A stretch of DNA of 64,000 nucleotides from a virus. The notes below the pieces were generated by a model. That model ran no database searches. It saw only the letters and a list, made by a program, of their open reading frames with translations, and was not told the origin of the DNA. The position numbers and the translations under genes were made by a program. This document shows, piece by piece, positions 25,469-28,771 of the stretch (its first letter is position 1; every line of letters begins with the position of its first letter). The stretch spans positions 62,001 through 126,000 of IMG/VR virus record IMGVR_UViG_3300027833_000015. The stretch is one strand, 5' to 3'.

Positions 25469-25978
25469 ATGAACAAGACTTATAAAGGCAAATACAAAGT
25501 CAAGAACCCAAAGAAGTATAAAGGGGACGTGAACAACGTTGTCTATAGAAGTGGTTGGGAACGTGATGTGATGGTATACCTTGACGACCACACTGGTGTT
25601 GCTGAGTGGAACAGTGAAGATTTTATAATAAGATACTTCTATGAAGTTGATAAGAAGAACCACAACTACCACATGGACTTCTGGATAAAGTTCACCAACG
25701 GAACTATCCTACTTGTTGAAGTCAAACCCAAACGTCAGACAGAACCACCCAAGTCTAAGAACCCTCGGTCAAAGAGGGGACTCACAGAAGCGTTCGCGTA
25801 CATAAAGAACCGCAACAAGTGGGATGCAGCAGAGAAGGTTGCCAAGGATAATGGTTATGGTTTTGTTATCTGGACAGAAGTCGAGTTGACAGAAATGGGC
25901 ATCCTCAAGAAAACTCCTGGCACCATCAAGAAACTGAAACCGATGGCACCTTACCGCAAGAAGAAGAAAAAGACTTAA
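25469..25978 (+). CDS. gp4: Head completion protein gp4
   Basis: The 169-aa basic product contains VVYRSGWERDVMVYLDDH, EWNSEDFIIRYFYEVDKK, HMDFWIKFTNGTILLVEVKP and KWDAAEKVAKDNGYGFVIWT. This is the gp4 family, with a nuclease-like D-x(n)-E-V-K core (HMDFW...LVEVK). In T4, gp4 completes the filled head before tail joining. It ends in a poly-Lys tail. It is the only convincing plus-strand gene in the window, and its TAA shares the palindrome TTAA with the stop of the convergent tape-measure gene. Confidence 0.9.
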   Translation: MNKTYKGKYKVKNPKKYKGDVNNVVYRSGWERDVMVYLDDHTGVAEWNSEDFIIRYFYEVDKKNHNYHMDFWIKFTNGTILLVEVKPKRQTEPPKSKNPRSKRGLTEAFAYIKNRNKWDAAEKVAKDNGYGFVIWTEVELTEMGILKKTPGTIKKLKPMAPYRKKKKKT

Positions 25979-27834
25979 CCTCTTCGTCTCCTGTCGGTTC
26001 GATCGCTGGCATCCATAGCATTCGGCATAGCACCACGGTGAGTCGTGTTGCTCACATTCGTTGTGGTTGACGGTGCGTTGACCGCGACAGCAGCACCCCC
26101 TCCAGCACCTGCAAGATCAGACTTACCATCATTCATCTTTGTTGTGCTTTGCTGCATTTGAGCAGAGGCAGCAAGGGAAGTGCCAGAACCTGCCATGGAA
26201 GGTCTAACTGTCTCCACTTCCTGTCCATATGTATCAGCAAACATAGATGCCTTTTCAAAATCATCGAATGTCTCAACTTGTCCAGACATAGGGTCAAACA
26301 CCCTGAACGTAGATCCTTCACTACCTGCTGGTGCTTTGATCGAACCTGACATTGGGAGACCAGTTACAGGGTCGCGTTGCATGGCAGTAGCGACAGTTGC
26401 CGTCTTCGAAGACGGTTCGCTAATACCCATCTCTGCTTGGATCTGAGCGAGTTCTTCGGGTGGGATTGATGCCAAAAATGCATCGCTTTTTGCCTTTGAT
26501 GCTGCTGCATTCACTTTTGCTTGTGCTGCCTCATCTGGTGTCATTTCAGGCGAGACCTGCTTTATTGCAGCAAGTAGTGAGTCATCACCAGACGGTGCCG
26601 ACCCTCCTGTCATTTGCCTCAACATGTCTTTGACCAACTTCATCTGGTCGTCAGAGAGGTCATCGTCGTTTACGATTGCCTGTAGTTGTTCTGGTGTGGC
26701 ACTCGCAAGCATGCTCTCATCTACCACTGAGTCAACGTTACCAGTAAGTCCTACTGTGTTCTTCTCATACAGACCAGAGTTTTTCGCTGCTCTCTCAGCA
26801 TCATTTTGTTGCCCTTGATCTAATTCTATCACAGGTGCTTCGGGTTCAGTCGATTCGGGAAATGATATACCCAAGAACTTTGCTGCGGTGGCACCGATGT
26901 CTATGATCCAATCGATGAATGCACCAATCCCGTCGAACATTGCTGCCATACCTTTCCGTGCAGGTTCAAAGTTTTCCCAGACTTTCATGACATATCCCCC
27001 TACCGTCTTTGCGATGTCGACGAAAACGTCTTGAATGTCACCCATAAGAGAGAAGAAGTCACTGACAATAGCAGACAAAGTATCAAAGATGGTGAATGAA
27101 TCGAGGAAATCACTGACGAAGTTTCCTTCACCAAGTATAGAAGTTGCAATGTAAGACAGTCCGTCTTTGAGGAAGTCGAGAGGCAATGTGACAACTTTCA
27201 AGATACCTTGAAAGAATCCCTCAATTCCTGCCATAAGTTTTTCGGCAAAGGATCCTTCGTTGGCGTTAAAATAATCGAATGCTTGCATCAACCCATATAC
27301 AACTGCACCAATTGCAACACCAACTGCCAGTATGACAGGGATGAGGGGAATTATTACTGCTGTCATGGTACCAAACGCTGCACCAAGTCCACCCATCATT
27401 GCCGAGATAGGGAGAAAACTATCGAGCAGTCCTTCAACACCATCTTCACCCGCACCCTCTTTGCCTTTGTTGAATTCAGAAAGAAACTTGCTGCCCTTCT
27501 TTTCATCTTCCCCTTCGGGGTCTTTGTTTCTCTTTTTCTTTTTGGCGGCAAGTGCATCTGCGTCCAGTTCAGCATCTGACATTTCGAGCGCAGTAGCGAT
27601 TTGATTTTGACTGGCAATTTCAATGGTAGCAGGTATCACATCTAAGAAAGTCAACAGGATTCCTTCGATACGCAGGAGGGTCTGTGACATGAGATCCATC
27701 GAGTTGCCGTTGACTTCCTCAAGACTCTCAAACGTGCCTTCGATACTCTCGAATTGCGCGTCCATCAAAGCAGGAAGGTTTTGATTGAACAAAACCAACT
27801 CCTTTGATACACCTTCCAATATACTGTCTGCCAT
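25975..27834 (-). CDS. Tape-measure-like tail protein
   Basis: The start is taken at the ATG at 27834 (MADSILEGVSKELVLF), preceded by AAAGG and overlapping the stop of the frameshifted gp26 extension as TAATG; product 619 aa. Residues 1-80 are helical. Residues 95-135 are strongly charged. Residues 140-185 are a long Gly/Ala/Ile/Val hydrophobic stretch, typical of tape-measure proteins that insert into the inner membrane. The C-terminal 250 residues are Ala/Ser/Met/Gln-rich and end in RTDRRRRG. Position after a chaperone-type frameshift gene also fits a tape-measure role (T4 gp29 equivalent). Confidence 0.75.
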   Translation of the reverse strand: MADSILEGVSKELVLFNQNLPALMDAQFESIEGTFESLEEVNGNSMDLMSQTLLRIEGILLTFLDVIPATIEIASQNQIATALEMSDAELDADALAAKKKKRNKDPEGEDEKKGSKFLSEFNKGKEGAGEDGVEGLLDSFLPISAMMGGLGAAFGTMTAVIIPLIPVILAVGVAIGAVVYGLMQAFDYFNANEGSFAEKLMAGIEGFFQGILKVVTLPLDFLKDGLSYIATSILGEGNFVSDFLDSFTIFDTLSAIVSDFFSLMGDIQDVFVDIAKTVGGYVMKVWENFEPARKGMAAMFDGIGAFIDWIIDIGATAAKFLGISFPESTEPEAPVIELDQGQQNDAERAAKNSGLYEKNTVGLTGNVDSVVDESMLASATPEQLQAIVNDDDLSDDQMKLVKDMLRQMTGGSAPSGDDSLLAAIKQVSPEMTPDEAAQAKVNAAASKAKSDAFLASIPPEELAQIQAEMGISEPSSKTATVATAMQRDPVTGLPMSGSIKAPAGSEGSTFRVFDPMSGQVETFDDFEKASMFADTYGQEVETVRPSMAGSGTSLAASAQMQQSTTKMNDGKSDLAGAGGGAAVAVNAPSTTTNVSNTTHRGAMPNAMDASDRTDRRRRG

Positions 27835-28025
27835 TATCGTGCCGCCTTTCTCTGTTCCGCTTTCTCGTTTTCTTCTTTTATGTACTGAGTAAGCAACGCA
27901 ATGTAGATTGCCCTCTCCCACGGTAACATATTATCCAACTCCGTCAAACTATAATTATGGTGTTGCATCAAAGCGAAATTGGTCTTGTAATGGTTTACAA
28001 GGTTATCATGAGACAGGGTTATTAG
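27834..28025 (-). CDS. -1 frame extension of gp26 (tail assembly chaperone-type fusion)
   Basis: In the -1 frame relative to gp26, 63 codons continue from the slippery site to a TAA at 27834-27836. The peptide includes NHYKTNFALMQHHNYSLTEL and then MLPWERAIYIALLTQYIKEE, a well-formed helical segment of a type I recognise next to gp26 in T4-like phages. There is no good start codon at its head; the frame opens at a TGA just before the slippery run. Slippage would yield a 312-residue gp26 fusion. An internal ATG at MLPWERA is an alternative start. The extension lies just before the tape-measure gene, exactly as in lambda-like GT fusions. Confidence 0.7.
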   Translation of the reverse strand, partial: LITLSHDNLVNHYKTNFALMQHHNYSLTELDNMLPWERAIYIALLTQYIKEENEKAEQRKAAR

Positions 28026-28042
28026 AAAAAATCAGATAACCC
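28016..28042 (-). promoter_or_regulatory. Putative programmed -1 ribosomal frameshift site
   Basis: The minus strand reads T TTT TTC (28031-28025) directly before the gp26 TAA stop (28024-28022), a canonical X XXY YYZ slippery heptamer. It sits in the 13-base loop of a perfect 7-bp inverted repeat (GGGTTAT at 28042-28036, ATAACCC at 28022-28016). A second perfect 7-bp hairpin (CTTGTAA, loop ACCA, TTACAAG) follows at 28001-27984. Confidence 0.7.
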
Positions 28043-28771
28043 TTTCAACTCTACAGCGTTTTTGCTTCCACATTTAGTACACTCGAATTCCGCATTGTGT
28101 TTCAATGCAGGCATATTTTCTAAAAAGTCTGTCATCACCTTTAACTGATTCGCTGTCATATTATCGACAAACGCGATCATGTCTTCTAAGGATTCGTTTT
28201 TCGAATCAATTCTTTCGTCCTGTGTCAGAACAGCACCGATACAACTCGCCAGCAGTTCAATTACATTGGTGGACTTTTTCTCTTCTGCTTGAGAGACGCC
28301 CTCGCGTATCATAGTCTCATACGTGGGATACTTCATCTCCACAGATATTTCTGGTGTTATAACGACAACATTACCACCATCAGCAGCAGAGACAGATAAC
28401 TGGTCGAGGTCTATCGTGTATTCATTTTGCTCACCACAAGTTGTTCGCTTTGGGTTTATACCATCAATCAATGAAGTGCACGAGATCATTATCGTGGATG
28501 TTTCCCCTACAGACTTTGACCGTAGTTGGGTAAACATAAACTCGATGTCGAACGTGGCGAGTTGCTCTACATTTAAGTTTGCCTTTGGATCCACGCATGC
28601 GTTCAGAGTATCTGCCATGGCAGACAAACACATATGCATATCCTTTGACTCAAACGCTTGTAGTAATATCTTCTCTTCTTTGACCAAGTATGGTCGGTAT
28701 TTGACACGCTGCCCAGTTGAGGGGATTGTCATATTAAAATTCAGCGTTTCGTTAATCTTGGGTAATGCCAT
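28022..28771 (-). CDS. gp26: Baseplate hub assembly protein gp26-like
   Basis: The 249-aa product carries the gp26-type core: YRPYLVKEEKILLQAFESKD, ATFDIEFMFTQLRSKSVGET and LKVMTDFLENMPALKH. A C-terminal CTKC pair (FECTKCGSKN) resembles half a zinc ribbon; two earlier Cys (SCTS, TTCGE) could complete it. In T4 gp26 and gp51 act in hub assembly. The last codons GAT TTT TTC TAA form a slippery site, so a longer fusion is probably also made. It lies between a tail-tube-like gene and the tape-measure gene. Confidence 0.8.
   Translation of the reverse strand: MALPKINETLNFNMTIPSTGQRVKYRPYLVKEEKILLQAFESKDMHMCLSAMADTLNACVDPKANLNVEQLATFDIEFMFTQLRSKSVGETSTIMISCTSLIDGINPKRTTCGEQNEYTIDLDQLSVSAADGGNVVVITPEISVEMKYPTYETMIREGVSQAEEKKSTNVIELLASCIGAVLTQDERIDSKNESLEDMIAFVDNMTANQLKVMTDFLENMPALKHNAEFECTKCGSKNAVELKGLSDFF

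Follow-up and report, generated by a model that had tools for sequence, protein, structure and literature searches.

Vladimirov, Gautam and Davidson (2022, Virology 566:9-15) reportedly identified gp26 and gp51 as the tail-assembly chaperone genes of T4-like phages. Long-tailed phages as a rule produce their tail chaperones with a frameshift, T4 being named as an exception in a 2016 review (PMC5009743). In the lambda G/GT system, the short chaperone gene has a -1 frameshift close to its end and belongs to the block of genes upstream of the tape measure (PMC5009743). At the chaperone locus of the Vandenendeviridae and Andersonviridae, the -1 shift takes place on a T run (GTTTTT), also at the end of the short gene, and the -1 frame is uninterrupted in all genomes (PMC12846349). 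According to the same paper, the TAC-N (short-form) genes of T4-like phages carry a poly-T -1 signal, and according to another (PMC10885494) some T4-like phages have both a short and a long, fused copy. A further -1 slip on a homopolymer heptamer, that of E. coli dnaX, is stimulated by an upstream Shine-Dalgarno (SD) element (PMC5009743).

Here we analyse a chaperone locus in a 64,000-nucleotide stretch (the window) of a 153.9-kb virus record, which belongs to a marine T4-like phage. We propose, with a probability of about 0.94 given the comparison of related sequences, that the gp26/gp51 locus encodes a tail-assembly chaperone made in two forms through a -1 slip. The protein families are those of the T4-like gp26/gp51 chaperones, PF12322 in the short form and PF12322 plus an extension in the long form; however, T4 has two separate genes on opposite strands that lack the run, whereas a single locus would here make both forms by frameshifting. 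The strategy would be that of lambda G/GT, with a different slippery heptamer, here T_TTT_TTC. The Vandenendeviridae and Andersonviridae are other phage families, and their shorter run resembles the Ackermannviridae junctions described below. The dnaX site is also a homopolymer heptamer, and it has an upstream SD stimulator, for which an SD-like site is a candidate here, but it reads A_AAA_AAG instead of a T run, its product logic differs and no conserved downstream stem was found at the gp26 junctions. A first, sequence-only reading of this DNA had suggested that a frameshift in gp26 would connect two assembly strategies; the connection is supported, but it appears to have been made already in 2022.

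The gp26-gp51 locus

On the minus strand, genes for a single-stranded DNA-binding protein, the DNA end protector and the tail tube precede gp26 and the gp51 stretch, which are followed by a 619-aa gene, the baseplate tube cap and gp53. The putative short form of the chaperone, gp26 (28022..28771, minus strand, 249 aa), matches PF12322 (E 9e-54; 182.9 bits against a curated cut-off of 24.5, thus a family match) and phrog_150 (E 3e-55). PF12322 occurs as a single copy in the record from which the window is taken. The 3' end of gp26 reads ...GGG TTA TCT GAT TTT TTC TAA, so that the heptamer T_TTT_TTC (28025..28031, minus strand) adjoins the stop codon TAA (28022-28024).

The -1 frame extension (27834..28028, minus strand) consists of TTT, 63 codons and a TAA stop (27834-27836). 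Residues 2-62 of this stretch are covered by phrog_634 ("baseplate hub assembly catalyst", gp51; E 1e-27). The stretch also matches the C-terminal end (positions 235-281) of phrog_150, the gp26 family profile, which means that fused forms exist. The sequence-only reading had placed the heptamer directly before the gp26 stop, counted 63 open -1 codons up to the next gene and predicted a 312-aa fusion. All three points were borne out: the heptamer runs from 28031 to 28025 directly before the TAA at 28024-28022, the -1 frame ends at TAA 27836-27834, overlapping the ATG of the following gene, and the computed gp26-gp51 product has 312 aa.

The gene that directly follows gp26/gp51 (25975..27834, minus strand, 619 aa) is probably the tape measure. 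Its ATG overlaps the gp51 stop (TAATG), and position and length point to this role; the tape-measure profile match is weak (phrog_1272, E 0.028) and comparison of the protein with relatives gave no clear similarity. Between the probable tape measure and the gene for the tube cap, the plus strand carries a 169-aa gene (25469-25978), which by position alone would correspond to Mosig's head-completion gene.

Conservation of the junction in relatives

By tblastn, relatives of gp26 were detected in 727 phage records and the -1 stretch in 596; gp26 queries from ACP17, SRB7757 and KVP40 added almost no further relatives. The junction set comprised 226 related loci with 156 distinct junctions, which form 79 clusters at 85% identity, the effective number being about 46 at 80%. 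The conservation of TTTTTTC in homologues, proposed earlier as a check, could thus be examined directly. An in-phase T_TTT_TTN was present in 153 of the 156 distinct junctions, as TTTTTTC (85), TTTTTTT (60), TTTTTTA (5) or TTTTTTG (3). Its distance upstream of the gp26 stop is 0-2 codons in 152 of these 153 and 8 codons in the last. Past the stop, the -1 frame stays open for 53-66 codons in all 156 junctions; for the +1 frame, the median is 5 codons. Loci retrieved by gp26 alone all carried the heptamer (45/45), hence the result was not produced by searching with gp51.

The three junctions lacking T_TTT_TTN belong to phiMAM1, K475 and Cygsa01, the last of which groups with the Ackermannviridae in our tree. 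Together with three further Ackermannviridae, they have N_NTT_TTY and keep the -1 extension. Of these six loci from Ackermannviridae and near relatives, which combine the shorter site with a gp51-like extension, two have no ATG at the junction.

The window derives from an uncultivated virus contig, and the -1 overlap might therefore reflect a sequencing or assembly error, or gp51 might be a decayed gene. However, cultured, sequenced phages (KVP40, HTVC008M, cyanophages and phiM9) have the same junction, as do over 100 distinct contig sequences, and purifying selection acts on the -1 stretch (see below). Since homologues share the junction, error or decay is already refuted and keeps a negligible probability.

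Selection on the slippery codons and on the -1 frame

The Phe-Phe pairs at the junction are written as slippery T_TTT_TTY in 145 of 145 cases, versus 19 of 608 Phe-Phe pairs elsewhere in the same loci (Fisher p 6e-135, with relatedness among loci ignored). By this contrast, the choice of Phe codons at the junction is under selection at the nucleotide level. The presence of the heptamer in 153 of 156 junctions, taken with this codon choice, puts heptamer, phase and open -1 frame far beyond chance.

A fusion could also arise if RNA polymerase slipped on the T run, so that some mRNAs would gain an extra U and be translated in the ordinary way. The junction does consist of a run of 6-8 T's, yet polymerase slippage is independent of the reading phase, and all 153 runs of at least six T's begin at the third base of a codon, which fits ribosomal rather than transcriptional slippage. 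Moreover, natural bacterial cases use runs of about 9 (PMC5009743), whereas the runs here are mostly of 6; the second Phe codon is TTC in 85 of 153 junctions, and the upstream SD-like element would be purposeless. Polymerase slippage is thus extremely improbable, and we retain slippage of the ribosome.

Over codons 1-15 after the slip, dN/dS is 0.13 in the -1 frame, versus 1.36 and 2.68 in the other frames. In 117 of the 156 loci, the -1 frame has no ATG, GTG or TTG as far as 8 codons beyond the stop, and the first ATG usually comes 17-19 codons in. Comparison among relatives shows, from this substitution pattern, that translation in the -1 frame already covers codons which precede any start.

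These data bear on whether gp51 is instead a separate small protein, initiated at a start codon of its own or through reinitiation after termination at the gp26 stop. Database records do annotate gp51 as a gene of its own, and about a quarter of the relatives (39/156) have some start codon near the junction, in seven cases an ATG overlapping the stop. In KVP40, phiN3, phiM9, RHph_N34 and RHph_I1_9, TAATG or TGATG lies at the gp26 stop, and the heptamer is present as well; in phages with such an overlap, free gp51 might be made besides the fusion. However, a separate gp51 is at odds with the 117 junctions that have no start codon close to the stop; of the 39 that do, only 4 have an SD match of at least 4. 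In the window, the -1 extension has no start codon before codon 20, and a TGA stands in the -1 frame immediately 5' of the heptamer. In the -1 frame, purifying selection acts on codons that precede the first start, and the invariant heptamer, kept even beside TAATG, would be left unexplained. We therefore consider a separately initiated gp51 very unlikely and favour the ribosomal -1 slip.

Split genes of T4 as a natural control

T4 carries genes 26 and 51 separately, on opposite strands. T4 gp26 is PF12322 alone (E 9e-64), and T4 gp51 is PF12322 (E 4e-52, residues 1-201) followed by the extension (phrog_634, E 1e-23). T4 gp26 retains the two Phe residues but encodes them as TTC TTT; in 12 split-gene loci the gp26 end could be read, and it lacked the slippery run in every one. 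Separate genes lacking a run had been named by the sequence-only reading as evidence against the frameshift. T4-type phages do lack the run, but the objection fails as posed: the extension is already part of their long gp51, in support of the fusion.

In an unrooted tree of 37 domains, which has long branches, the split gp26 sequences form one group and the split gp51 sequences another, and the two together stand opposite all frameshifting forms across one branch (95/88). This topology is consistent with just one duplication in the T4 lineage, whereby T4-type phages would have exchanged the slip for two genes, a short gp26 and a long gp51. KVP40 and AsFcp_4, which are also Straboviridae, retain the slip. 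All together, conservation of the heptamer, its phase, selection at the codon level, purifying selection on the -1 frame ahead of start codons and the fused equivalent in T4 gp51 support, at the level of sequence, the programmed -1 frameshift that had been proposed to join gp26 to the downstream peptide.

Candidate stimulators of the slip

The junction, its conservation and the translation of the -1 frame emerge from comparison of sequences; the efficiency of the slip and its stimulators are inferred. The SD-like motif AAAGGG (28040..28045, minus strand), about 9 nt upstream of the heptamer, is a candidate stimulator. Family-wide, pairing with the anti-SD peaks at about this distance (mean -5.3 versus -0.7 kcal/mol), and GAG is favoured over GAA at the site (p 9e-4). 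Conserved Gly-Leu codons account for part of the signal and the split-gene T4 retains the motif, hence the sequences are suggestive of a role as a slip stimulator.

The two perfect hairpins pointed out by the sequence-only reading are both present on the minus strand. The first is a 7-bp stem, GGGTTAT/ATAACCC (28016..28042, arms 28042-28036 and 28022-28016), which holds the heptamer in its loop; the second, CTTGTAA-ACCA-TTACAAG (27984..28001), begins 23 nt after the heptamer. The junction region of the window folds better than shuffled sequences (z -2.4), and local folding dips in relatives, with a mean z of -1.3 at the junction and at +15..+65. No consensus RNA structure was found over 79 representatives, and no conserved canonical downstream structure. 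As a general stimulator, the second hairpin was rejected: it is fully paired in 29 of 153 relatives, and 23 nt exceeds the usual spacing.

In the register of the bracketing stem, relatives have a mean run of 5.1 bp, versus at most 3.6 in any other register; covariation beyond column composition is weak. With the 5' arm occupied by the ribosome, this stem cannot act as a roadblock. It may instead be a family-wide RNA element that brackets the heptamer, with an SD-like 5' arm and, after the stop, an anti-SD-like CCT in the 3' arm, and that tunes the slip by timing the release of the SD. We regard such an element as rather unlikely; if it does exist, the stem would act by controlling SD availability, unlike the usual downstream roadblock. 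A separate observation concerns position 28017 (minus strand), the third base of a -1-frame codon, at an offset of +13 from the P-site codon. C stands there in 73% of relatives versus a background of 15%, though the amino acid varies (A/G/T/S/C), which points to a constraint at the RNA level.

Probable chaperone role and proposed mechanism

The AlphaFold2 model of gp26 (pLDDT 88) gave no significant match with Foldseek alone. When the model was re-aligned to the Foldseek candidates, the top 2 of 690 chains were 3FGX (Z 8.6, 4.2 A over 88 residues) and HK97 gp13, 2OB9 (Z 7.2, 4.4 A over 87), the next chain having a Z of 4.6. PMC9603447 describes both as tail assembly chaperones. The Z scores are moderate, and the match covers the first ~100 residues of gp26 only. 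A profile search of solved structures returned no relative, and a model of the T4-type gp51 gave no chaperone match, which does not in itself exclude the fold. From the predicted fold, the gene position and the literature, we infer that gp26 has a chaperone role in this phage. Short and long forms sharing an N-terminal part are the sequence architecture in the 156 junctions, with T4 gp51 as a fused equivalent.

Most ribosomes would terminate at the gp26 stop and produce the 249-aa short form. A fraction would slip back by one base at T_TTT_TTC, the two Phe tRNAs re-pairing on TTT_TTT, probably helped by the upstream SD-like element, and would produce the long form of 312 aa, with the gp51 domain at its end. 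On the model of lambda G/GT, both forms may cover the tape measure while the tail is assembled, with the extension recruiting tail-tube subunits, and both may depart before the virion is completed.

Implications for T4-like phages

None of the annotated regions that we viewed lists gp26-gp51 as a joined, frameshifted product; in those phage records gp51 is given separately, truncated to an internal ATG, or is missing. Annotations may thus be corrected, a joined product being expected where gp51 is missing or listed separately, often in truncated form.

From the comparison of sequences, it is well supported that the gp26/gp51 slip represents the lambda G/GT strategy in T4-like phages. This lambda-style slip would be kept in a large part of the wider group of T4-like phages that we examined, with cyanophages, pelagiphages, rhizobial phages and KVP40-type vibriophages, and in a weaker form in Ackermannviridae. 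The classic T4 'catalyst' gp51 would then correspond to the long form of the chaperone, there encoded by a separate gene. T4 gp51 is required for tail assembly and is absent from the particle, which is what would be expected of a long chaperone form.
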